64,000 bases of DNA. Source: an uncultured Bacteroidia bacterium (lineage in GTDB: Bacteria; Bacteroidota; Bacteroidia; Bacteroidales; Prolixibacteraceae). A model generated the notes under the pieces. That model had not been told where the DNA came from and made no database searches. It saw only the letters and a list, made by a program, of their open reading frames with translations. The stretch covers positions 186,001 to 250,000 of the forward strand of contig CAIUAN010000038.1 of the NCBI GenBank assembly GCA_903897145.1, read 5' to 3'. Each line of letters begins with the position of its first letter. Positions within the stretch are counted from its first letter, which is position 1. Both the position numbers and the translations under genes were made by a program. Below, piece after piece: positions 1,984 through 41,906 of the stretch.

Positions 1984-4407
1984 TTAAATATTTGACACTT
2001 TGATTAGGTCAGCGAAGACCCCCGCAGCAGTTACAGCAGCTCCAGCGCCATATCCCTTAATCAACATAGGATATTCATTGTAACGCTCACTAGTCAGTAA
2101 TAAGATATTATTACTTCCTTCCAAGTCGTAAAAAGGATGACCTGGATCCACTACAACTAATGTTACTGAAGCTTTACCTTCATTCATCACCCCAACAAAG
2201 CGCCATTTTTGCTTCTTCTGTTCTAGAACAACTCTTTGCATTTCAAATACTTCATCCATTTCGCCAATCGTATTCCAGAATTCATCCATTGATGAGGTAA
2301 AATACTTATCTGGGATAAAGGCATTATTTTTAACATCCCCTTGTTCTAAAACATAACCTGACTCACGAGCCAGAATTACCAACTTTCGAATAACATCGAT
2401 TCCACTTAAATCTATTCGAGGGTCTGGTTCGGCATAGCCCATTTCCATAGCCATCTTAACCGCCTTGCTAAATGGAATTTCTGCACTTAAGGTATTGAAA
2501 ATATAATTTAATGTTCCAGATAATACAGCTTCAATGCGAACAATCCGATCGCCTGAGCGCATTAGATCATTGATGGTTGAGATCAGCGGCAGTCCTGCAC
2601 CTACATTGGTCTCAAACAAAAACTTAACCCCATGCTTAGCAGCCATCTCTTTTAATTCGCGATAACGGCTATATTCTGACGAAGCAGCCACTTTGTTAGC
2701 AGCGACAACTGAGATGTAATTTTCAAGTGCGTAGAGGTAGTAATTAGCCACCTTATCATCCGCTGTACAATCAACAAAAACAGAATTAAACAAATTCATC
2801 TCGACCATTGTCTCAGTAAATTGTTTCAGATCTGATTTGATTTCTGATTGTCCAATACTATTTTTCAACTCTTTAACATCGATACCTTCCCGGTCAAAGA
2901 TCATCTTGCGAGAGTTGGCAACCCCAGAAAGTTTCAGGTTAAGACGGTGATCTTTCAATAGTTTTTTCTGTTGACGGCCAATTTGATCAAGCAAATCGCG
3001 ACCAACGGTACCAATACCGACTAAGAATATATTTAGTTCGACAAATGGAGAGAGGAAAAAAGCTTCATGAACAACGTTCAGTGTTTTCTTTAGATCTGAA
3101 TTCTTAACGACCCAAGAGATATTTAATTCAGATGCTCCCTGTGCAATTGCAACAACATTGATTCCATTATTACCCAAGGTATGAAAAAGTTTTCCTGCAA
3201 TACCAGCTGAATGCTTCATATTTTCGCCCACAATGGCCAAGATAGAGAGTTCATTTTCGCAAGCCAGTTTACTAATCATACCTGAAGCTATCTCTGGTTT
3301 AAATTCACTTGAAATAGCCTCATTTGCAATAGCCTCATATTTTGAATCAATTGCAAAACTGATCGAATTTTCTGAAGATGCTTGAGAAATCAAAATGACG
3401 TTGATCTCCTTATGTGCTAAAGCTCCAAATAAGCGCATTGAAATACCTGTTACGCCAACCATTCCCAATCCTTGAATTGTGAAAAGAGAAATTCCTGTAA
3501 TAGAGGAGATTCCTTTTATTGGATGATCTTTCCCCAGTAATTCAGATTGACTAATTAGTGTCCCTTCGCCTGATGGATTTAAGGTGTTTTTTATGTGAAT
3601 TGGAATATTTTTCTGATAAACAGGAAGAATCGTGGGTGGATAGATCACCTTAGCCCCAAAATGCGACAATTCCATGGCTTCAGAATAGGTTAATGTTGGA
3701 ATGGTATAGGCCTTACTGATCACACGAGGATCAGCTGTCATAAAACCATCGACATCCGTCCAGATTTCCAATTGAGATGCGTGGACACCTGCTGCAAACA
3801 AAGCAGCAGTATAGTCAGATCCTCCTCTACCAAGAGTTGTTTGAGAACCATCGGTACCAGACGAGATAAATCCCGGAGCAACAGCAAATTGCTTTATATC
3901 TGAGCAACCTTTTGAAATCAGTTGGTAAGTAAGATTAAAGTCAACATTTGCTCTGCCAAAATTTAGATCTGTCTTAATATAAAGACAACTATCCAAAAGA
4001 GGTACGCCAAGGTATCGACTAATCAATAGCGATGACAATCGCTCACCAAAGCCCAGGATTTGATCTGAGATTTTAAGAGAAAAGTCTTTATGGATTAAAA
4101 GAGTACTTATTACATTCTCAAGCTTTTCAAAAAGCGGACGAAGTTCATCACTCGCATGGCCTGCTGATGAGTCAGAATAGAGTTCGCCAATCACCTCCAG
4201 GTGCCTATTCCAAATAGCCTTCAACTCGGCAGCGGGATCTAACCCTTTGGAGGCATTGTGCGCTAAGGCAACAAGCATATCAGTCACTCCACCCAGAGCA
4301 GAAACAACCACAATTATTTTTTCTTGTTGAGAAAGGACGATCTCTCCAATTCTTTTGATATTATCAGCCGAACCAACTGAGGTCCCTCCAAATTTTAATA
4401 TTTTCAT
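1984..4407 (-). CDS. thrA: Bifunctional aspartokinase / homoserine dehydrogenase
   Basis: The 807-residue protein catalyses the first and third steps of the aspartate-to-threonine pathway. The N-terminal aspartokinase domain (about residues 1-290) starts with MKILKFGGTSVGSADN, with the second substrate region TTLGRGGSDYTAALFA. Two ACT regulatory modules follow (about 305-460), containing GMVGVTGISMRLFGAL and the matching ASELNISWVV segment, which suggests threonine feedback control as in ThrA of enteric bacteria. The homoserine dehydrogenase domain (about 465-807) opens with the NAD(P)-binding FLVGIGTVGRDLLDQI and contains VAANKVAAS and the catalytic-region MGYAEPDPRIDLSG. Length is normal for the fusion. 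It is the first gene of the operon; no threonine-rich leader peptide or attenuator is visible in the 113 bases upstream. Confidence 0.97.
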   Translation of the reverse strand: MKILKFGGTSVGSADNIKRIGEIVLSQQEKIIVVVSALGGVTDMLVALAHNASKGLDPAAELKAIWNRHLEVIGELYSDSSAGHASDELRPLFEKLENVISTLLIHKDFSLKISDQILGFGERLSSLLISRYLGVPLLDSCLYIKTDLNFGRANVDFNLTYQLISKGCSDIKQFAVAPGFISSGTDGSQTTLGRGGSDYTAALFAAGVHASQLEIWTDVDGFMTADPRVISKAYTIPTLTYSEAMELSHFGAKVIYPPTILPVYQKNIPIHIKNTLNPSGEGTLISQSELLGKDHPIKGISSITGISLFTIQGLGMVGVTGISMRLFGALAHKEINVILISQASSENSISFAIDSKYEAIANEAISSEFKPEIASGMISKLACENELSILAIVGENMKHSAGIAGKLFHTLGNNGINVVAIAQGASELNISWVVKNSDLKKTLNVVHEAFFLSPFVELNIFLVGIGTVGRDLLDQIGRQQKKLLKDHRLNLKLSGVANSRKMIFDREGIDVKELKNSIGQSEIKSDLKQFTETMVEMNLFNSVFVDCTADDKVANYYLYALENYISVVAANKVAASSEYSRYRELKEMAAKHGVKFLFETNVGAGLPLISTINDLMRSGDRIVRIEAVLSGTLNYIFNTLSAEIPFSKAVKMAMEMGYAEPDPRIDLSGIDVIRKLVILARESGYVLEQGDVKNNAFIPDKYFTSSMDEFWNTIGEMDEVFEMQRVVLEQKKQKWRFVGVMNEGKASVTLVVVDPGHPFYDLEGSNNILLLTSERYNEYPMLIKGYGAGAAVTAAGVFADLIKVSNI

Positions 4408-31826: not shown

Positions 31827-32426
31827 TTACTTATGTCTTTTCTTAAGTTCTCGGGCTAGATCTTCAATTCGATATCCTTTGTGTGAAAGCAATACAATCA
31901 AGTGATAAACAAGGTCAGAAGCTTCATAAAGCAAGCGCTCATCATTATTTGCCATCGCCTCAATAACCGTCTCAACGGCCTCTTCTCCAACTTTCTGAGC
32001 CATGCGGGAAATACCATCTTCAAACAATGATGTGGTATAAGATCCTTTCGGCATATCAACTTTCCGTTTATCAATAAAATCTTGTAAGTGTTTTAAGAAT
32101 AAAATATCCTCGCCTACATTATCTTCACCCCAGCAGGTGCCAGTGCCATTATGACAAGCTGGGCCAACAGGGTTAACTTTAATCAAAAGGGTATCTTGAT
32201 CGCAATCGGCCTGAATTGAGACAACATTAAAGAAATTACCAGACTCCTCCCCTTTGGTCCATAGTCTATTTTTTGTGCGGCTATAAAACGTAACAAGCTT
32301 AGAAGAAGCTGTCTTTTGATAGGCTTCTTCATTCATAAATCCGAGCATTAAAACTTTGCCGGTGGTGTCATCCTGAATAATTGCAGGAAGAAGATCTCCA
32401 GTTAATTTTTTAAAATTTAATTCCAT
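31827..32426 (-). CDS. hisI: Phosphoribosyl-AMP cyclohydrolase / phosphoribosyl-ATP pyrophosphatase
   Basis: The HisIE fusion performs the second and third steps of histidine synthesis. I choose the ATG at 32424-32426, giving 199 residues that begin MELNFKKLTGDLLPAIIQ; an upstream ATG at 32456 would add ten non-homologous residues. The cyclohydrolase domain has the zinc cysteines in SIQADCDQDTLLIKV and GPACHNGTGTCW. The HisE-like pyrophosphohydrolase domain (about 105-199) has QKVGEEAVETVIEAM and ASDLVYHLIVLL. It is the last histidine gene of the operon, downstream of hisF. Confidence 0.96.
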   Translation of the reverse strand: MELNFKKLTGDLLPAIIQDDTTGKVLMLGFMNEEAYQKTASSKLVTFYSRTKNRLWTKGEESGNFFNVVSIQADCDQDTLLIKVNPVGPACHNGTGTCWGEDNVGEDILFLKHLQDFIDKRKVDMPKGSYTTSLFEDGISRMAQKVGEEAVETVIEAMANNDERLLYEASDLVYHLIVLLSHKGYRIEDLARELKKRHK

Positions 32427-32506
32427 AGTGCTTTCTTGAGCGATAAATATTGTCAAAATCGAAGTGCCATTAAAGCACTTGAAGAAATGCTTTAATTGTA
32501 ATTTTA

Positions 32507-33259
32507 CTATCTTATTACGATATCTTTTGTGCGAAGGTAATGCTTTAGATCAGGAATGGCAATTTCGTGAAAATGAAATATGCTAGCTGCAAGTCCAGCA
32601 TCAGCCTTTCCAAGGGTGAACACATCAGCAAAATGTTCCATACTACCAGCCCCACCAGAAGCAATAAGCGGAATAGTCAGGATTTCTGAAAGTTTAGCCA
32701 GCTCTTTATTGGCAAAACCATTTTTAGTCCCATCATGATTCATCGAGGTGAAAAGTATCTCTCCTGCGCCCCGATCTTCTGCCTCTTTAGCCCAAGAATA
32801 CAACTCTTTATCTGTAGGTATTCGGCCACCATTTACGGTAACTGTCCAATGGTTATTTGCTTCACGTGCATCAATGGCCACCACAACAAACTGGCTTCCA
32901 AAGTTTCGCACAAGATCGTCTATCAGATTTGGATTTCGAACAGCTGAGGAGTTAATAGATATTTTATCTGCCCCAGCAGCCAAAAGGGCTTCGGCATCTC
33001 TTATTTCACTTATTCCTCCACCAACAGTGAATGGGATGTCTAAATTCTGTGCGATCCGTTTGACTAATTCAACAAATGTTTTACGACCCTCATGAGTGGC
33101 TGTTATATCTAAAAACACTAATTCATCGGCACCTTGTTCTGCATAAAGTTTACCTAGTTCAACAGGATCCCCAACATTTACAATGTTGACAAAATTAACC
33201 CCTTTAACCGTCTGTCCATCTCGGATATCAAGACAAGGTATGATTCGTTTTGCTAGCAT
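32507..33259 (-). CDS. hisF: Imidazole glycerol phosphate synthase, cyclase subunit
   Basis: The HisF subunit, with HisH, makes imidazole glycerol phosphate and AICAR. I set the start at the ATG 33257-33259 ([15 protein letters not shown]), giving 250 residues of normal length; the longer frame from 33310 adds 17 unrelated residues inside hisA. The beta/alpha barrel shows the catalytic Asp in [21 protein letters not shown], and [20 protein letters not shown], the second catalytic Asp being in AIDAR. It starts one base from the end of hisA, so translation is probably coupled. Confidence 0.97.
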
Positions 33260-33260
33260 A

Positions 33261-33986
33261 TTATCGTGAAATAAATTGAGTGATCTGGGCCATGGTGATC
33301 CGACCTTCATAGATTGCTTTTCCAGTAATCACAGCTGGAATTCCAGCATCCTGCAACTCGAGAATATCGGCCATTGAGCTAACACCTCCACTAGCAATTA
33401 AATAGGTACCTGGAATAGCCGCTAGAATTTTAGTATACAAATCTGTTGCGGCCCCTTGTAACATGCCATCTCTGCTGATATCTGTACTTATTATCTTCGT
33501 AATACCTTGACTATGCCAGGTATTGATAAACGAGAAGATATCTGTTTCAGTTTGTTCTTGCCATCCAGTAACAGCAATCATCTCATCTTTTGCATCTGCT
33601 CCCAAAATAATCTTGTCTGCACCATAATTCTGTATCCATCGGAGGAAGATATCGGGTGATTTTACTGCAATACTACCACCAGTAACCATTGCAGCTCCTG
33701 ATTCAAAAGCTATTTTTAAATCTTCATCCGATTTTAATCCGCCTCCAAAATCAACAATTAATCCAGTCTGGTTTGCGATCCGGCTTAAGACTGCCTGATT
33801 CACAATATGGTGAGCTTTAGCACCATCTAAATCAACTAGGTGAAGTCTTTTCAAACCAGCATCTTCAAACATCTTTGCAACCTCTAAAGGGTCCGAATTA
33901 TAAATGGTCTTCTGATTATAATCTCCTTGACTTAATCGGACACATTTCCCATCAATAATATCTATTGCAGGTATGATTTCAATCAT
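33261..33986 (-). CDS. hisA: ProFAR isomerase (HisA)
   Basis: A 241-residue (beta/alpha)8 barrel that isomerises phosphoribosyl-formimino-AICAR-phosphate. The N-terminal [20 protein letters not shown] includes the catalytic Asp8 region, [15 protein letters not shown] the first phosphate site, and [15 protein letters not shown] the second catalytic Asp. It lies nine bases after hisH and one base before hisF in the his operon. Confidence 0.97.
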
Positions 33987-33994
33987 TATGTATA

Positions 33995-34600
33995 TTAAAA
34001 CTTGAGATTTATAAAGTTAGACAAGAGTTTTGATCCTGCGGATCCACTTTTCTCAGGATGAAACTGAGTCGCATAAAAATTATCGCGTTGCAAGGCAGCG
34101 CTAAAAGGGTTCAGATAAGTGCATGTTGCAGCAGTATCTGCTCCTGTCGTGGCATAATAAGAATGAACAAAATAGAAATAATCAGCTTCACTCAGACCCT
34201 CGAAAAGAGGTGTTTTCAATTCACTTAAGGAATTCCAGCCCATGTGGGGTATTTTATAATGAGAATGATCCCCCATTAGCGGGATAAATTTCTTAACCTT
34301 TTCGGGGAAGATCCCTAAGCAGGTTGTATCGCCCTCTTCAGAGTGTGTGCACATTAATTGAAGTCCAAGGCAAACACCCAGAACAGGTTGTTTTAGATCA
34401 CAGATCAAGGAATCTAAATTATGTTGTTTCAAAAATCGCATTGTTGTAGCAGCCTCGCCAACACCAGGGAAAATAACCCGATCAGCGTTTCGAATTTCGT
34501 CTTGATCATCGGTAATAGTGGCAGAGATGCCAATGCGCTGAAGCGCAAAGTCGACCGACCGAATATTACCAGCATTGTATTTTATAACAACAATCTTCAT
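33995..34600 (-). CDS. hisH: Imidazole glycerol phosphate synthase, glutaminase subunit
   Basis: A 201-residue class I glutamine amidotransferase that feeds ammonia to HisF. The nucleophile Cys is in QPVLGVCLGLQLM, and the His/Glu pair is in FYATQFHPEKSGSAG. The N-terminal VIKYNAGNIRSVDFALQRIG is the normal start. It is 25 bases downstream of the TlpA-like gene, which separates it and purU from hisB. Confidence 0.97.
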   Translation of the reverse strand: MKIVVIKYNAGNIRSVDFALQRIGISATITDDQDEIRNADRVIFPGVGEAATTMRFLKQHNLDSLICDLKQPVLGVCLGLQLMCTHSEEGDTTCLGIFPEKVKKFIPLMGDHSHYKIPHMGWNSLSELKTPLFEGLSEADYFYFVHSYYATTGADTAATCTYLNPFSAALQRDNFYATQFHPEKSGSAGSKLLSNFINLKF

Positions 34601-34625
34601 TAGAGATTTAAACTATAAATAAAAC

Positions 34626-35192
34626 TTATTCTTTTAATAACAATCCGATCACACGCACCATTTCTTTAAACTCATTCTCTTTAAATAAACGTGTCATAAA
34701 TACGATTTTACCTTTTTTATCGATAATAACATTTCGGGTGACACCCGCCTTTTTATCGGCAAACAGACTAAACACCTCCGCATTTTGATCCACGGCCAAT
34801 GGATAGGAGATATCAAGATCTTTTTGATATTGCTTAACCTTATCTAATGGCTCATCGCGGTCAACACCAAACAATAAAAACTTCGAATTACGTTTGTATG
34901 CATCCCAGATATCCTTTTGTATAAATGGAATCTCCTTCCGGCAAACACCGCACCAACTCGCAGTAAACTGAAGCATCACAACTTTACCCTTCCACGATTT
35001 AGATGACACCTTTTTCCCATTTAGCAATTGAAGGGTAAAATCGGGTAAGGCATCTCCAATTTTAGCTTTAAACTCATACTGATCAGGAATCTCTTGCTTC
35101 GGAACATGGTTGTATTTTTGAGCAAAAGAAGTTGAAAAAAGCAACGTTCCAATCAAAGTAATTATCCAAGAAATCCTATTAAAAGTTCTCAT
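34626..35192 (-). CDS. TlpA-like thioredoxin-fold protein, exported
   Basis: With the ATG at 35190-35192 the product is 188 residues and begins with a signal peptide (MRTFNRISWIITLIGTLLF, cleavage near SFAQ); the longer frame from 35270 adds 26 residues that lie inside purU. The mature AhpC/TSA-thioredoxin domain has the redox motif WCGVC in LQFTASWCGVCRKEIPF. It resembles periplasmic disulfide reductases of the TlpA/ResA group, and the partner is unknown. Its position between purU and hisH in the his operon is odd, because it has no evident histidine role. Confidence 0.87.
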   Translation of the reverse strand: MRTFNRISWIITLIGTLLFSTSFAQKYNHVPKQEIPDQYEFKAKIGDALPDFTLQLLNGKKVSSKSWKGKVVMLQFTASWCGVCRKEIPFIQKDIWDAYKRNSKFLLFGVDRDEPLDKVKQYQKDLDISYPLAVDQNAEVFSLFADKKAGVTRNVIIDKKGKIVFMTRLFKENEFKEMVRVIGLLLKE

Positions 35193-35199
35193 GATGTAT

Positions 35200-36084
35200 T
35201 TAATTAAATACCACAGTTCTATTATTATAGACAAGTATTTTACGTTGAAGATGCTTATAAACGGCCTCACTCAACACTATTTTTTCTAGATCACGCCCCT
35301 TACGCACCAAACTATCAACGGTATCGATATGGGAAATTCGTACCACATCTTGGACGATAATTGGTCCGGCGTCAAGATCTGCAGTGACGTAATGACTCGT
35401 AGCACCAATAATTTTAACTCCGCGTGCATGAGCCGCATGATACGGTTTTGCACCTGCAAAAGCTGGTAAAAAGGAGTGATGAATATTGATAATTCGATTT
35501 GGATAATAAGAAATAAATTGATCAGATAGCACTTGCATATAACGGGCAAGAACGACGAAATCGATATCGTATTTTTTCAATAATTGCAATTCGGCCTTTT
35601 CCTGTTCAGCTTTATTCTCCTTGTTTTTCTCAATAAAATGAAAATCAATACCAAATCGCGAAGCAACAGGCCTCAAACTTTCATGATTACTAATTATCAC
35701 AGGAATTTCAGTCTCCCAATCACCCGCAATATATCGTGAAAGAATGTCAAAAAGGCAATGAGATAAGCTTGAGACAAAGAGCGCCATACGCGGTTTTTTA
35801 TCTGAAAAATGAAGCGAGAATTTAATCTCAAATTTGCGCGCAATAAGTGTCTCAAAATAATCAGAGATCTTATCGCGTGGAATAGCAAATTTATCTAGTT
35901 CCCACTCCACCCGCATATAAAAAAGACCCTCTTCATGGTCGACATGCTGATCTAAGTAAATAATATTACCTCTATTTTCATTGAGGAATTCAGTAACCGC
36001 AGCTAATATTCCTTGCTTATCCATGCAATGAATAAGAAAAATAGCAGTATTTCGAGGGTTCGTTTCTTTACGTATTGATTGCAT
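35200..36084 (-). CDS. purU: Formyltetrahydrofolate deformylase
   Basis: A 294-residue PurU that hydrolyses 10-formyl-THF to formate and THF. An N-terminal ACT domain (about 12-95; IFLIHCMDKQGILAAVTEFL) precedes the formyltransferase fold with VVLARYMQVLS, the catalytic NIHHSFLPAFAGAKPYHAA and IIGATSHYVTADLDAGPII, the last carrying the conserved Asp. It is 27 bases downstream of hisB and seven bases before the TlpA-like gene, so it is embedded in the his operon. A link through formyl-folate demand of the AICAR branch is possible but unproven. Confidence 0.95.
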   Translation of the reverse strand: MQSIRKETNPRNTAIFLIHCMDKQGILAAVTEFLNENRGNIIYLDQHVDHEEGLFYMRVEWELDKFAIPRDKISDYFETLIARKFEIKFSLHFSDKKPRMALFVSSLSHCLFDILSRYIAGDWETEIPVIISNHESLRPVASRFGIDFHFIEKNKENKAEQEKAELQLLKKYDIDFVVLARYMQVLSDQFISYYPNRIINIHHSFLPAFAGAKPYHAAHARGVKIIGATSHYVTADLDAGPIIVQDVVRISHIDTVDSLVRKGRDLEKIVLSEAVYKHLQRKILVYNNRTVVFN

Positions 36085-36110
36085 ACTTGATTACATTAGT
36101 ATATTAGAAT

Positions 36111-37235
36111 CTAAAGAACACCCTTCGTACTTGGCAGAGATTGCACAAAAGGATCTTTTCGAATAGCCATTTTAAGAGCTCTTGCAAAGGCTTTAAATAT
36201 TGATTCAATCTTATGATGTTCGTTTGAACCCTCTGCCTTAATGTTTAAGTTAGAAAGCGATGCATCAGAAAGTGATTTAAAGAAGTGAAAAAACATTTCT
36301 GTTGGCATATCGCCAACTTTTTCGCGGCTAAATTCAGCTTCCCAAACAATCCAGGGTCTTCCGCCAAAATCAACTGCCACCTGAGACAGACAATCATCCA
36401 TTGGCAGGCAATAACCATAACGTTCAATGCCCCGTTTATCACCAAGCGCTTTGCGAATAGCCTCACCTAAAGCGATTCCAGTATCTTCAATCGTATGGTG
36501 CTCATCAACGGCCAAATCACCTTTCACATTAATTGTTAGGTCACAACCAGAATGGCGACCTATTTGATCGAGCATATGATCGAAGAAAGCTAGACCAGTA
36601 TTAATTTTACATTTTCCTGTACCATCTAAATGAAGCTCGACATAAATATCGGTCTCAGCAGTTTTACGGCTTACCGTGGCAGAACGCTCGCCAATAGCTA
36701 AGAAATTATAGATCGCATCCCATTGATCTGTGATTAAGGCGCATGAATCTTGCAAACCTTCAGCGACGATCTTGTCCGATTGATCAACTGGCGCAAAGTA
36801 GATCCCTTTAGAACCTAAATTTTTTGCCAGAACAATATCTGTCAATCGATCACCAATAACAAATGAACCAGCTAAATCATACAAATCACTAAAATATTCG
36901 GTCAGCATCCCTGTCCCTGGTTTGCGATTGATTGAATTTGCCTCGGGCCTTGTTGGATCAATATGGATATTCGAAAATACAACACTCTCATTTTCGAAAG
37001 CCTTAATCATCATATTTTGTGCAGGCCAAAAAGTATCTTCAGGGAACGAAGCAGTGCCAAGTCCATCTTGATTGGTAACAATGACTAATTCAAAGCCAAG
37101 ATTTTTCTGGATATGATATAGATTTCGAAATACACCAGGAATAAACTCAAGTTTATCCAACGCGTCAACCTGCATATCACTTTTAGGTTCAACAATTAGC
37201 GTACCATCACGATCTATAAAAAGAATTTTTTTCAT
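36111..37235 (-). CDS. hisB: Histidinol-phosphatase / imidazoleglycerol-phosphate dehydratase
   Basis: A 374-residue bifunctional enzyme for steps 6 and 8. The N-terminal HAD phosphatase (about 1-165) has FIDRDGTL with nucleophile Asp8 and [14 protein letters not shown], plus a Cys-free zinc loop region; the C-terminal dehydratase (about 185-374) shows the metal motifs [15 protein letters not shown] and [16 protein letters not shown]. Length matches the E. coli-type fusion. hisC ends 142 bases upstream, a gap with no clear promoter or terminator. Confidence 0.97.
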
Positions 37236-37377
37236 ACTACCTATTTAAGTAATCCTATACTATTTTATTGCTAATAAGATCCCTATTCTAAAGTTAAGGA
37301 ATTGAATTCAAACAACTAATGAATTAATCTATATTATTATTGACAATCTTATTGATCTGCAAAAAACTATTTTAATC

Positions 37378-38415
37378 CTATATTAATTGATCTAACGCTT
37401 CCATTAAGGTTGCATTTTCTTCAGGTGATCCTATACTAATTCGCAAGCATCCTTCACAAAGTGAAATAGAGGAACGATCGCGAACTATGATCTGTTGATC
37501 TACCAAAAACTGATAGATCCCGCGCGGATCGTGCATCTGAACAAGTAAAAAATTAGCATCTGAGGGATAAACCTTTACCACAAATGGGTATGATTGAAGG
37601 TTCGTAATCATTTTCGCTCTTTCCTTAAGAATACTATCAACCCACTGATTTTTATTAGCTTCATTGGCCAATAATTCTAGGGCTTTTTGCTGAGTCAGAA
37701 TATTAATATTATATGGATATTTTATACGACTTAATACATCAATAATCTCAGGTGAAGCGAAAGCTATCCCTAAACGTAAGCCCGCCATTCCCCAGGCTTT
37801 AGAAAATGTCTGAAGGATAACTAGATTAGGATATTTAACAAGCAATGGAAGCAAACTTTTTTCAGGACAGAAATCGATGTAAGCCTCATCCAAAACCACT
37901 ATTCCTTTAAACTCTTCAATAATTTTCAATAAACCAGAGTTATCTAATGCATTCCCAGATGGATTATTGGGAGAACAGAGGAAAATCAGTTTTGTCTTTG
38001 GAGTAACTGCCTTTAAGACTGCTGCAGCATCGAGTTCAAAATCAGCACTTAAAGAGACATGAGCCACGGATATATTATTCGTATCAGCAGCCACTCTATA
38101 CATACCATAGGTAGGATTAATGGAGACTACCTGATCAAGGCCAGGCTCACAAAATGCTCTAAAAAGCAAATCGATAGGTTCATCGCTTCCATTACCCAGG
38201 AAAATATGCTCGACTGAAATATTTTTTAACGCACTAATTCGGTTTTTAAGTTCTCTTTGATGTGGATCAGGATAACGATTCCAAGGTGAGTTAAATGGGT
38301 TTTCATTGGCATCTAGAAACGCAGCAGCCTCTCCTGAGAATTCATCTCGAGCACTTGAATATGGTTTTAAATTGCGAATATTATCTCGCAGTAATTTAGT
38401 AAGATCTAAGCTCAT
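37378..38415 (-). CDS. hisC: Histidinol-phosphate aminotransferase
   Basis: A 345-residue class I PLP aminotransferase that converts imidazole acetol phosphate to histidinol phosphate. The PLP Lys is in LQTFSKAWGMAGLRLGIA, LCSPNNPSGN and VLDEAYIDF are the cofactor-contacting segments, and LRISIGSPEEN is the substrate-carboxylate Arg region. It follows hisD by 26 bases. Confidence 0.96.
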   Translation of the reverse strand: MSLDLTKLLRDNIRNLKPYSSARDEFSGEAAAFLDANENPFNSPWNRYPDPHQRELKNRISALKNISVEHIFLGNGSDEPIDLLFRAFCEPGLDQVVSINPTYGMYRVAADTNNISVAHVSLSADFELDAAAVLKAVTPKTKLIFLCSPNNPSGNALDNSGLLKIIEEFKGIVVLDEAYIDFCPEKSLLPLLVKYPNLVILQTFSKAWGMAGLRLGIAFASPEIIDVLSRIKYPYNINILTQQKALELLANEANKNQWVDSILKERAKMITNLQSYPFVVKVYPSDANFLLVQMHDPRGIYQFLVDQQIIVRDRSSISLCEGCLRISIGSPEENATLMEALDQLI

Positions 38416-38441
38416 AGTTTAATGTTTCGATAAATGAAAAA

Positions 38442-39737
38442 CTATTTATCGCCCTTTTTAATGGACTTGATTCGCAATGATACAGCATTTTTATGTGCAA
38501 AAAGTTGCTCTGCCTGAGCCATCTCTTCAATAACTGGACCAAGATTCAGCATGCCTTCTTTGGTGATCTCTTGAAAAGTAATTTTCTTTGAGAAGCTATC
38601 TAAACCAACACCGCTCATCGATTTAGCCCAGCCGTTAGTTGGCAAAATATGGTTCGTACCAGAGGCGTAGTCACCAGCACTCTCTGGGGTATAATTTCCG
38701 ATAAACACAGAACCTGCATTGGTTATTCGTTCTGCAAGTGCTCCAGCATCCTTCGTAGAGATTATCAAATGTTCTGGTGCATAATAGTTTATAAATCCAA
38801 GCATCTCTTCCGTGTCATTTACAAGAACAGCGCGACTATTATCAAGAGCTTTGGCGGCAATATCGGCCCTGGGAAGAGCTTTTAGCTGCTTGCCCATCAC
38901 TTTGACAACCTCTTTGATTAACTGCTCATTGGTTGTAATCAATATAACCTGACTATCAGGTCCATGTTCGGCTTGAGACAATAAATCGGCAGCGATAAAT
39001 TCAGGATTTGCAGTTTCATCAGCCATAACAGCGACCTCAGAAGGGCCTGCAGGCATATCAATTGCACAATCAGACATAGCCACAAATTGCTTTGCAGCAG
39101 TGACCCATGAATTACCAGGCCCAAAAATCTTATCGACCTTCGGAATCGATTCTGTACCATATGCCATGGCACCAACAGCTTGCATTCCACCAATCTTATA
39201 GATCTCTGTGATGTGACACACAGATGCGGCAAAAAGTATAGCTGGATGTATTTTCCCCGAACGATCAGGCGGAGAACAAAGAACCACATTGTTGCAACCC
39301 GCAATCATAGCTGGGATACCCAACATCAAGACTGTTGAAAATAAAGGAGCCGTTCCACCTGGAATATAAAGTCCAACCCGATCGATTGGCACTGATTTCT
39401 GCCAACATTTCACCCCTGGCATAGTCTCAACCACATGACGAGTTAGTTTCTGTGCCATGTGAAACGTATCAATATTTTGCGCCGCTACCTGAATAGCTCT
39501 TTTCAATTCAGGGGCAAGACTATCCACAGCCTCTTTAATCTCTTCATCTGAAACCTTAAAGTTGGCGACATCAACATGGTCAAATTGAAGGGTGAATTTT
39601 CGTACTGCTTGATCGCCATCCTCACGGATTTTCAACATGACCTTGCGTACCGTTTCAATTTTATCTAAGAAATCTGCCGTAGGCCTTTCAGTTATAGCTG
39701 GCCACGACTTTAAAAGAGGAAATCGGTAGATCTGCAT
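38442..39737 (-). CDS. hisD: Histidinol dehydrogenase
   Basis: A 431-residue zinc enzyme for the last two oxidations to histidine. Conserved segments include VGLYIPGGTAPLFSTVLM, KIFGPGNSWVTAAKQFV, LLSQAEHGPDSQVIL with the Gln/His metal ligands, and YAPEHLII. The length is typical. It is the second gene of the operon, 11 bases after hisG. Confidence 0.98.
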   Translation of the reverse strand: MQIYRFPLLKSWPAITERPTADFLDKIETVRKVMLKIREDGDQAVRKFTLQFDHVDVANFKVSDEEIKEAVDSLAPELKRAIQVAAQNIDTFHMAQKLTRHVVETMPGVKCWQKSVPIDRVGLYIPGGTAPLFSTVLMLGIPAMIAGCNNVVLCSPPDRSGKIHPAILFAASVCHITEIYKIGGMQAVGAMAYGTESIPKVDKIFGPGNSWVTAAKQFVAMSDCAIDMPAGPSEVAVMADETANPEFIAADLLSQAEHGPDSQVILITTNEQLIKEVVKVMGKQLKALPRADIAAKALDNSRAVLVNDTEEMLGFINYYAPEHLIISTKDAGALAERITNAGSVFIGNYTPESAGDYASGTNHILPTNGWAKSMSGVGLDSFSKKITFQEITKEGMLNLGPVIEEMAQAEQLFAHKNAVSLRIKSIKKGDK

Positions 39738-39748
39738 AGTGCTAAAAT

Positions 39749-40609
39749 TTACAAAATCATTTTTTCGATAGGCAAAACTAAAATTCCTTCAGCGCCACTT
39801 CTTTTCAAGTTGCCAATTACAACCCAAAACTCACTCTCATTGATCACAGAATGTAAAGAGCTCCAGCCGCTTCGTGCCAAAGGCATAATCGTAGGGGAGG
39901 TCATCCCAGGAAGAACTTTAATAATTTGTTCCAATTTATCATTCGGGGCATTTAGCATAATATACTTCTTGCCTCTCCCCTTTTCAACAGATTCGATACG
40001 GAAAATTAGCTCGTCGAGAATTGCCTGTTTTTCTTTAGATAGATTAGGAGTTGCTACTAATACAGCCTCAGACTCCATCACGGTATAAACCTCTTTTAAT
40101 CGATTGCTTACCAACGTACTTCCAGAGCTTACGATATCAAAGATAGCATCAGCAAGACCGATCCCTGGTGCTATCTCTACAGATCCAGCAATAAAATGGA
40201 TGTTTGCGGTGATCTTATGCTCTTCAAGAAAAGTTTTTAATATTCGGGGATAAGAGGTAGCTATTTTCTTTCCAGAAAACCATTCTAATCCTTGATAATC
40301 AACATCTTTTGGAATTGCCAAGGAGAGTCTGCATTTACTAAATCCTAAATGCTTCACCGTCTCAACGAGCTGACCTTGTTCCATCACCTCATTTTTACCG
40401 ACAATACCGATATCGGCCACTCCATCTGACACACATTGAGGAATATCATCGTCGCGCAAGAATAGCGCTTCCAGCGGAAAATTCTTAGCAGCAGAGATTA
40501 ACCTACGGCTACTTGAAACTAGTTTAATACCTGTTTCTGACAACAGCGACATTGAATCTTCATTCAATCGACCTTTAGTCTGTATTGCAACTCTTAATAT
40601 TGAATCCAT
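39749..40609 (-). CDS. hisG: ATP phosphoribosyltransferase, long form
   Basis: A 286-residue HisG catalysing the first committed step. The catalytic part shows AIQTKGRLNEDSMSLL, VADIGIVGKNEV and the PRPP loop DAIFDIVSSGSTLVSNRL; the extra C-terminal domain (about 215-286, containing KVLPGMTSPTIMPLA) is the feedback-inhibition domain of the long, HisZ-independent form. It is the first structural gene behind the attenuator at 40621-40743, so histidine should act on both enzyme and transcription. Confidence 0.97.
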   Translation of the reverse strand: MDSILRVAIQTKGRLNEDSMSLLSETGIKLVSSSRRLISAAKNFPLEALFLRDDDIPQCVSDGVADIGIVGKNEVMEQGQLVETVKHLGFSKCRLSLAIPKDVDYQGLEWFSGKKIATSYPRILKTFLEEHKITANIHFIAGSVEIAPGIGLADAIFDIVSSGSTLVSNRLKEVYTVMESEAVLVATPNLSKEKQAILDELIFRIESVEKGRGKKYIMLNAPNDKLEQIIKVLPGMTSPTIMPLARSGWSSLHSVINESEFWVVIGNLKRSGAEGILVLPIEKMIL

Positions 40610-40620
40610 GGTAATAAATT

Positions 40621-40653
40621 AAAAAAGGCTCACCTGAATAAAAAGGTAAGCCT
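40621..40653 (-). terminator. his attenuator terminator (segments 3:4)
   Basis: On the minus strand GGCTTACC (within 40643-40651) pairs with GGTGAGCC (40627-40634), 8 bp with one G-T wobble, followed at once by TTTTTT (40621-40626). It lies only 12 bases before the hisG start. This hairpin is exclusive with the pairing of segment 3 to segment 2 (40692-40700), as in classical amino-acid attenuators. Confidence 0.85.
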
Positions 40654-40710
40654 GTGTTTTTTGTCTTTTGATTATGGACGCATCACCGCAAGCTCACCTT
40701 AAGGTAAGTG
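40643..40710 (-). promoter_or_regulatory. his attenuator alternative hairpins (segments 1:2 and 2:3)
   Basis: Segment 1 (CTTACCTT, 40701-40708) pairs with segment 2 (AAGGTGAGC, 40692-40700). The hairpin extends through CATCAC of the His codons to GTGATG just past segment 2. Segment 2 also pairs over 9 bp with segment 3 (GCTTACCTT, 40643-40651), which would stop the 3:4 terminator. A ribosome stalled on the His codons would cover segment 1 and free 2 to pair with 3, permitting hisG transcription. Confidence 0.8.
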
Positions 40711-40743
40711 ATGATGGCCGTTATGAATAATGAGTACTTGCAT
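40699..40743 (-). CDS. hisL: Histidine-operon leader peptide
   Basis: A 14-codon frame encodes MQVLIIHNGHHHLP and then TAA. Four of 14 codons are His (CAT, CAT, CAT, CAC), three in a row. It starts 134 bases before hisG on the same strand and ends inside the first hairpin of the attenuator. A -7-like element TAAGTTTG (40760-40767 on the minus strand) lies just upstream, without a well-spaced -33. No Shine-Dalgarno sequence is visible, as usual in this phylum. The role follows the His-codon stalling principle known for enteric hisL; the symbol is used by analogy. Confidence 0.85.
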   Translation of the reverse strand: MQVLIIHNGHHHLP

Positions 40744-40841
40744 ATCGTATATTATCTTGCAAACTTAGTTAAAAAACAGATTAGTTCTACTAAACAAAGG
40801 GATGAAATGTTAAATAAAAATTAAACTTACCCTTCTAACAT

Positions 40842-41906
40842 CTAAAATTGCAATCCCTCAAGCAAACGAATATAAGTTTTTATCCCATTCTGTATTTCTG
40901 AGATTAAGATATACTCATTCGCAGTATGTGAACGGGCAGAGTCACCTGGTCCCATTTTTATAGATGGGTAAGGGATCACAGCCTGGTCAGATGTGGTTGG
41001 AGAGCCATAGATTTCCAACCCTAATTCGATACCCCTTTTTACCAAAGGATGCTCTGGATTAATGCCTGAAGAGTTTAAACGGAAAGAGCGAGGTGTAACT
41101 TCAGCCTCAATCAGGTTAACGATCACCTTATAAACCTGATCGTTTGAATAAAACTCATTCGTGCGCACATCTAATACAAATCGACATGAATCGGGGACCA
41201 CATTGTGTTGATGACCAGCCTCAATTTGCGTAACTGTCATTTTCACAGGTCCTAATAGCTCAGACTCGAGAGGGAACTTATAATTTTCAAGGATTTGAAT
41301 ATCCCGAATCGCCTTATAGATTGCATTGTCACCTTCATTTCGTGCAGCATGACCAGCCTTACCTTTCGCTTCACAATCTAATACGATCAAACCCTTTTCT
41401 GCTACTGCAATATTCATTTGTGTTGGCTCACCAACAATAGCTAAGTCTATCTTACCAAGTTGATCTAGAACCGAGGCAACGCCAAATTCGCCTGAAATCT
41501 CCTCTTCCGCACTCACACAAAAAATCAAGTTAAAGGGCAAGGAGGTCGAATCATGAAAATAACGAAAAGCGCCTAACAACGATACCACAGAAGCTCCTGC
41601 ATCATTGCTACCTAAACCCGTCAATCGATCACCCTCAACCGTAGCCTTAAATGGGTCGTAGGTCCACCCATGATTGGAACGAACCGTATCCATGTGAGAA
41701 TTGAATAAAATCACAGGTTTTGATTCTACCCAATACTTACTTCGAATCCATATATTATGTCTACTTCTAGTCGGCGCTAAACCCCAAGAAGTTAGTTTTT
41801 GTTCGATATAATCAGCAACATCTTTCTCTTCCCGACTTAAAGAGGGAGTTTCGATCATTGCTTTTAAAAGCTCAACGCTATCTGATATAATTTGTTCTGT
41901 CTGCAT
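40842..41906 (-). CDS. argE: N-acylornithine/N-acylcitrulline deacylase (ArgE-like, M20 family)
   Basis: A 354-residue M20-family zinc hydrolase. Metal-ligand motifs are LFNSHMDTVRSNHGW, GLGSNDAGASVVSLLG, CVSAEEEISGEFG and VGEPTQM, and MGPGDSARSHTANEYI gives the C-terminal ligand. Because the transcarbamylase two genes upstream is of the N-acylornithine type, the substrate here should be N-acetyl- or N-succinyl-citrulline, not acetylornithine. The stop is near the end of the arginine/proline cluster; its frame follows argB by two bases. No terminator was recognised between it and the his promoter region (40744-40841). Confidence 0.92.
   Translation of the reverse strand: MQTEQIISDSVELLKAMIETPSLSREEKDVADYIEQKLTSWGLAPTRSRHNIWIRSKYWVESKPVILFNSHMDTVRSNHGWTYDPFKATVEGDRLTGLGSNDAGASVVSLLGAFRYFHDSTSLPFNLIFCVSAEEEISGEFGVASVLDQLGKIDLAIVGEPTQMNIAVAEKGLIVLDCEAKGKAGHAARNEGDNAIYKAIRDIQILENYKFPLESELLGPVKMTVTQIEAGHQHNVVPDSCRFVLDVRTNEFYSNDQVYKVIVNLIEAEVTPRSFRLNSSGINPEHPLVKRGIELGLEIYGSPTTSDQAVIPYPSIKMGPGDSARSHTANEYILISEIQNGIKTYIRLLEGLQF

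Follow-up and report, generated by a model that had tools for sequence, protein, structure and literature searches.

A putative histidine-codon attenuator before hisG in an uncultured member of the Prolixibacteraceae, and similar leaders across the Bacteroidota

In the histidine operon leader of E. coli and Salmonella, modelled in Rfam as His_leader (RF00514), a His-rich peptide is encoded before hisG, and alternating RNA segments, a terminator and the his genes follow downstream. In Firmicutes, his attenuators have been described in which a leader with His codons stands before his or hisZ/hisS genes and is accompanied by alternative hairpins (PMC9413887, PMC2965389). As of 2010, leader peptide systems had, to the knowledge of the authors who then added one from Firmicutes, been shown only in Proteobacteria and Actinobacteria (PMC2965389), and in 2022 his attenuators were placed in Proteobacteria and some Firmicutes (PMC9413887); the main text of neither paper contains a word beginning with "bacteroid". 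Of two further papers, one deals with his genes in this superphylum and brings up attenuation once, with regard to E. coli and Salmonella (PMC8305728), and the other restricts amino acid attenuators to the four Rfam motifs then available (PMC3766115). Rfam does hold a leader-peptide family from the same phylum, though for another amino acid and operon, namely Bacteroid-trp (RF01692), the "Bacteroidete tryptophan peptide leader RNA" (PMC2864571), so that this kind of attenuator was already known among Bacteroidota. A description of a his attenuator from the phylum was not found in the literature searched; the surveys Vitreschak 2004 and Lopatovskaya 2010 (the latter cited by PMC4833913) could list some cases, and priority is therefore not claimed.

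The window analysed here is a stretch of 64,000 nucleotides from an uncultured Bacteroidia bacterium of the Prolixibacteraceae (assembly GCA_903897145.1, contig CAIUAN010000038.1, positions 186,001 to 250,000). On its minus strand, at 40743-40699, an ORF encodes the leader peptide MQVLIIHNGHHHLP followed by the stop codon TAA (ATG CAA GTA CTC ATT ATT CAT AAC GGC CAT CAT CAC TTA CCT TAA); such a His-rich leader is conserved in relatives. As a preliminary description of this DNA had reported, four of its 14 residues are His. They are encoded by codons 7 and 10-12, the triplet being located at 40716-40708. Like the leader of E. coli and Salmonella, it is followed by alternating segments and a terminator and has hisG and further his genes downstream, yet it differs in its length of 14 residues with four His and in finding no match with the Rfam model. 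As for the Firmicutes attenuators, the likeness lies in the His codons of the leader, in the alternative hairpins and in an occurrence outside Proteobacteria, and the difference is one of phylum.

Four segments make up the element, all on the minus strand. Segment 1 (40703-40719) holds the His triplet and has segment 2 as its partner in the fold; segment 2 (40677-40698, with its core GGTGAGC at 40692-40698) may, according to the fold and the pairing test, be the partner of either 1 or 3; segment 3, AGGCTTACCT (40644-40653), is by the pairing tests and the terminator scan the partner of either 2 or 4; and segment 4, AGGTGAGCCT with its T run (40621-40635), forms with segment 3 the terminator recovered by the scan. 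The core of segment 2 is alternatively complementary to GCTTACC in segment 3. The motifs from which the arrangement was originally read, CTTACC, GGTGAGC, GCTTACC and GGTGAGCC, do occur in the order claimed for them, the last running into six T. The overlap of the leader with segment 1 likewise stands, whereas the extent given to segment 1 needs amending: it is longer than first noted because CATCATC, which is part of the His codons, pairs in the fold with GGTGATG, 3' of GGTGAGC.

The terminator stem of segments 3 and 4 (40653-40626) comprises 10 pairs, 5 of them G-C, with a loop of 8 and a T tail reaching 40621. It is the one terminator found in a scan of 40500-40900, against 0.2 in shuffles, and a search for its exact pattern returned a single occurrence in the 2.8-Mb assembly. 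Folding of the minus strand from 40760 to 40610, a check that had been proposed at the outset, yielded -33.2 kcal/mol (z -3.0), a value that none of 200 shuffles equalled. This predicted fold is the terminating form. It combines helix 1:2 (40719-40703 paired with 40698-40677) and helix 3:4 (40653-40644 paired with 40635-40626), the two that the preliminary description had called compatible.

Only 11 nt separate the T run from the ATG of hisG, which starts at 40609. This gene (39749-40609, minus strand) encodes an ATP phosphoribosyltransferase of the long form with HisG_C (Pfam PF01634, 4.3e-52; PF08029, 2.7e-27) and is the head of a his cluster. From ORFs and Pfam domains, hisD, hisC, hisB, two other genes, hisH, hisA, hisF and hisI/E follow it on the same strand (31827-39737), the gene names of the cluster being assigned from the domains. 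Incidentally, the two genes between hisB and hisH (34626-36084) are not his-like in appearance; by eye, one resembles a formyltetrahydrofolate deformylase and the other a thioredoxin.

On the strength of its sequence and of modelled pairing, the element in all likelihood controls the his operon by ribosome-mediated transcription attenuation, and the leader with its switchable terminator would very probably let the his genes, presumably transcribed together as one cluster, be read only when histidine is short. Transcription would start roughly 10-15 nt before the leader ATG. With His-tRNA charged, the ribosome would reach the stop codon, which sits in the loop of helix 1:2, so that a ribosome at this point would cover segment 2, and the 3:4 terminator would form before hisG. 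With charged His-tRNA in short supply, the ribosome would stall on the three consecutive His codons and cover segment 1; segment 2, thereby left free, would pair with segment 3 ahead of the synthesis of segment 4, and the polymerase would read on into hisG. Were no ribosome loaded, 1:2 would pair first and 3:4 would terminate. The geometry of ribosome-mediated attenuation which the preliminary description saw in this DNA is supported by both the anatomy and the comparisons below, and it is from these that I infer the mechanism. An attenuator of this sort would provide a testable model of histidine control in a large phylum.

The predicted pairing was also modelled with a ribosome on the leader. 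When the ribosome is treated as a mask and segment 4 as still unmade, 2:3 forms with a probability of 1.00 for an A site at His codon 10, 1.00 at codon 11 and 0.85 at codon 12; with the ribosome at the stop codon, 2:3 is at 0.00 and 3:4 at 1.00. In the full-length equilibrium, the same three positions give 0.29, 0.45 and 0.00 for 2:3 and 0.71, 0.55 and 1.00 for 3:4, so equilibrium folding reproduces the switch only in part. Since the terminator prevails over 2:3 in these full-length foldings on the His codons, the switch would depend on timing, that is, on the order of synthesis; in attenuators in general, the order in which the RNA is synthesised is assumed to matter. Likewise, in a ribosome-free RNA reaching through segment 3 only, 2:3 stands at 0.99 versus 0.01 for 1:2, a preference which implies that default termination would need 1:2 to have formed first.

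A scan for HisG in genome contigs yielded 77 loci, the nearest being from uncultured Bacteroidia and Prolixibacteraceae assemblies, of which 75 were used (L074 and L075 have no upstream DNA). Short ORFs in which some stretch of 8 residues includes 3 or more His were counted as His-rich leaders. They stand before hisG in 50 of these 75 named relatives; by comparison, 26 of 750 shuffles have one, as do 99 of 2404 stretches taken from elsewhere in these loci. Of the 25 loci without one, 22 come from records titled Prevotella, Prevotellaceae or Xylanibacter (L033, L036, L043, L045, L048, L050-L054, L056, L058, L060-L065, L068, L069, L072 and L077), a lineage in which the leader has apparently been lost or is absent. 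The pairing test was run on 49 leaders, namely 48 together with that of the window, L070 having been set aside because it contains a run of N, and L071 because its GTG-start ORF was put down to chance; pairing of segment 2 with segment 3 beats shuffles at p<=0.05 in 41 of the 49.

Recurrence of this kind bears on a rival explanation. A peptidase-type ORF (40842-41906) lies upstream of the leader on the same strand as hisG, and a hairpin between two same-strand genes could be a plain terminator of the first, the His codons being a matter of chance and the hisG promoter lying downstream. I consider this highly improbable: the leader and the 2:3 pairing recur in relatives where the sequence 5' of the leader differs, and do so across families, a promoter-like motif precedes the leader, and the mere 11 nt from the T run to the hisG ATG leave no room for a promoter in between. 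The motif in question, TAAGTTTGC, is located just upstream of the leader (40759-40767, minus strand) and presumably belongs to the Bacteroidota -7 type. Matches to this type number 11 in the window versus 16.7 expected by chance, so the one before the leader is uninformative when taken alone; its weight comes solely from recurrence, since 47 of 49 leaders have a TA-N2-3-TTG motif no more than 45 nt upstream of their start, as against 152 of 980 shuffles. A sigma-70-type promoter scan found none. A Bacteroidota promoter pattern in two parts has two matches elsewhere in the window, and its upstream half is unmatched here.

Three alignments were compared: A1, with the 16 closest loci; A2, with 27 of the 49 leaders; and A3, with 16 loci of the CCCGTTTGA stem type. 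Rows which appear shifted by at least one base in one segment (L038 in A2; L188, L123 and L155 in A3) enter the counts as computed. Helix 1:2 is paired in 91% of cells over the 16 relatives of A1, with no change on both sides, and A3 shows no both-sided change in it either. Helices 2:3 and 3:4 are kept among the 16 closest loci, and are too conserved there for covariation to be testable. In A2, helix 3:4 is 98.5% paired over 27 sequences, both bases have changed in 4 of its pairs, and its covariation score is attained by 0 of 500 shuffles; the corresponding values in A3 are 94.4%, 3 pairs and 0 of 500. Both a conserved His-rich leader and a covarying 3:4 stem, on which the preliminary description had made its reading depend, are thus found in relatives. 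As to the other result that was to refute it, a hisG transcription start downstream of 40699, the promoter-like motif suggests a start upstream of the leader instead.

As for the antiterminator, the 2:3 core (7 pairs) is 98.4% paired over the 27 sequences of A2, its variation being mostly G-U exchange, and the whole helix (8 pairs) is 93.1% paired, with 13 of 500 shuffles reaching the covariation score; in A3, 2:3 is 92.9% paired, and again 13 of 500 shuffles reach the score. Column 88 of A3 belongs to segment 3; column 33 is its partner from segment 2, and column 100 that from segment 4. Column 88 is U in 11 sequences, with A or G as the segment 2 partner and A as the segment 4 partner, and C in L150 and L200, where both partners are G; in L188, L123 and L155 it is also C, with one or both partners mismatched as aligned. 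The sequences therefore lend moderate covariation support to a 2:3 antiterminator, and the proposal that 2:3 and 3:4 exclude each other holds with comparative support of that degree.

The T run after segment 4 is conserved in A1 and A2. This is what intrinsic terminators require, and it speaks against the leader acting more on hisG translation than on transcription, with the hairpin hiding the hisG start region. Hairpin and T run do end close enough to the hisG ATG, at 11 nt, to suggest such a role; segment 4, however, does not overlap the start codon, and I regard a translational effect of this kind as very unlikely. Conservation in A1 and A2 falls mostly on the His codons of the leader ORF and on the complementary stretches, which is at odds with a riboswitch or T-box-like RNA that would sense histidine or tRNA directly and to which the ORF would be incidental. 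A strong structure with a terminator would suit such an RNA as well, but at gathering thresholds the window has no Rfam match (0, His_leader and Bacteroid-trp included), and the idea deserves next to no credence.

With the Rfam threshold relaxed to E=10, the region 40560-40800 gives 7 matches, among which His_leader and Bacteroid-trp are absent. All but one are taken as chance, including a CRISPR-DR6 match at 40561-40591 that lies within hisG. The other is Thr_leader (RF00506), which aligns to the window over its whole length at 23.8 bits (E 0.014; gathering 55); its codons and operon are different, and the alignment probably reflects a similar leader-plus-terminator form.

Beyond the close relatives, a covariance model built from A2, R1, was run on 296 genomes. 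It hits 51 of them at E<=0.001, and hisG is found in 252. When 29 R1 matches in other genomes (L091-L119) were inspected by eye, 21 showed a His-rich leader before an ORF beginning like HisG, two (L114 and L117) had Trp-rich leaders before trp-like genes, and 6 had neither a His-rich nor a Trp-rich leader. The Trp leader L117 scores 43.1 bits against RF01692 (gathering 49), and the same Rfam model gave no match up to E 0.1 with the his leaders of L016, L055, L091 and L104.

A sample of the phylum was drawn from among the matches listed and comprises 86 hisG upstreams. They come from 27 families, and most genera contribute a single one (g7 contributes three, g17 two). Families in which HisG scores lower are too thinly represented, f18 by one genome and f13, f14 and f16 by none. 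His-rich leaders with an ATG start are present in 64 of the 86 (shuffles, 22 of 860; opposite strand, 1 of 86), and leader and terminator together in 52 (shuffles, 2 of 860; opposite strand, 0 of 86), a few of which resemble chance matches. When 2:3 pairing is tested in these 52, 28 pass at p<=0.05 and 14 at p<=0.01; the other 24 miss p<=0.05. After terminator-free leaders had appeared in f24, f3 and f22, 20 further upstreams were picked from these families. If any start codon is allowed and 4 or more His in 8 residues are required, 83 of the 106 upstreams have a leader, compared with 6 of 530 shuffles and with 0 of 106 on the opposite strand. Several families of 1-3 sampled genomes, e.g. f15, f29 and f18, show no leader. 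Three stem types recur, namely GGCTTACC, CCCGTTTGA and CCCCGGC, and the layout is constant across families while the stems vary.

Judged by sequence, then, the arrangement of his leader and terminator is widespread in Bacteroidota. That the locus belongs to this phylum and not to an enteric bacterium, as first emphasised, is true; the surprise is smaller than was thought, given this wide distribution and the presence in Rfam of a Trp leader of the phylum, RF01692. An RNA family could be built from the conserved leaders, which could also help in annotating short ORFs.

A different picture emerges in f24, a family sampled in nine genera (L164, L168, L171, L175, L178, L180, L182, L186, L194 and L206-L220). 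Of 24 hisG upstreams, 23 have a leader that reaches 4 His in 8 residues, in many cases with a GTG start, and the remaining one has 3 His. A hairpin before a T run at a score of at least 10 is found in 0 of 23, whereas all upstreams of f4 (7), f6 (8) and f35 (5) have one, as do 10 of the 11 from f17; a loose hairpin-plus-T-run test picks out 5 of the 23, with low scores and each spanning the leader stop codon. The spacer between leader and hisG is C-rich and G-poor in f24, with a mean C minus G of 0.195 and 91% of the 23 reaching 0.15, whereas in a control of 73 nt upstream of 80 other ORFs from six f24 genomes the value is 0.035 and 7.5% reach 0.15; the rank-test p of 6e-12 is overstated, because some of the 80 controls are intra-operon and the spacers are mutually related. 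Rho was found in all seven genomes searched, i.e. the six f24 genomes and that of the window.

Taken together, these sequence features are possibly those of Rho-dependent his attenuation in f24; alternatively, the f24 leader may work through a translational device. A still broader reading is that much of the Bacteroidota has His leader-peptide control in common, while the device through which it acts has been swapped: several families would rely on an intrinsic terminator whose stems are peculiar to the family, and f24 on Rho-dependent, ribosome-controlled termination. I put this forward tentatively, thinking it somewhat more likely to prove wrong than right. Terminator-free families would allow a direct test of one signal wired to different termination devices. 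Leaders lacking a terminator occur in f10 and f22 as well, a terminator being present in 3 of 5 upstreams of f10 and, weakly, in 1 of 3 of f22.

Two side observations concern these terminator-free families. The f24 genomes G108, G187, G227, G282, G191 and G203 each have a second protein with the Rho RNA-binding domain, in an open frame of about 400 aa, and the window's genome has one protein with this domain. In f3 (L121, L133, L135, L139 and L221-L223), a His-rich leader is present in 7 of 7 upstreams and a terminator in 0 of 7; some of them have a short hairpin over the leader end, of the ATCGCC/GGCGAT type in L133.

Leaders for other amino acids were looked for in the same genome. Within the window, a thrA-type gene (1984-4407) has no Thr/Ile-rich leader in the 400 nt upstream. 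Elsewhere, ilvD and trpE were identified by Pfam. On contig C29 (L084:1493-1612), a leader MTKNKSIWLWWGNTFLC (WLWW) with a hairpin lies 170 nt before trpE; R1 matches it at 25.4 bits (E 0.015), the Rfam model Bacteroid-trp does not reach E 0.1 on it, and its sequence makes it a candidate tryptophan attenuator. On contig C18 (L081:1501-1633), a leader MKNILSHNLLLVVILILVYPG (LLLVVILILV) is followed by a terminator-like hairpin 20 nt before ilvD; R1 matches this leader at 33 bits (E 2.1e-4), and by its sequence it is a candidate for a branched-chain amino acid attenuator.
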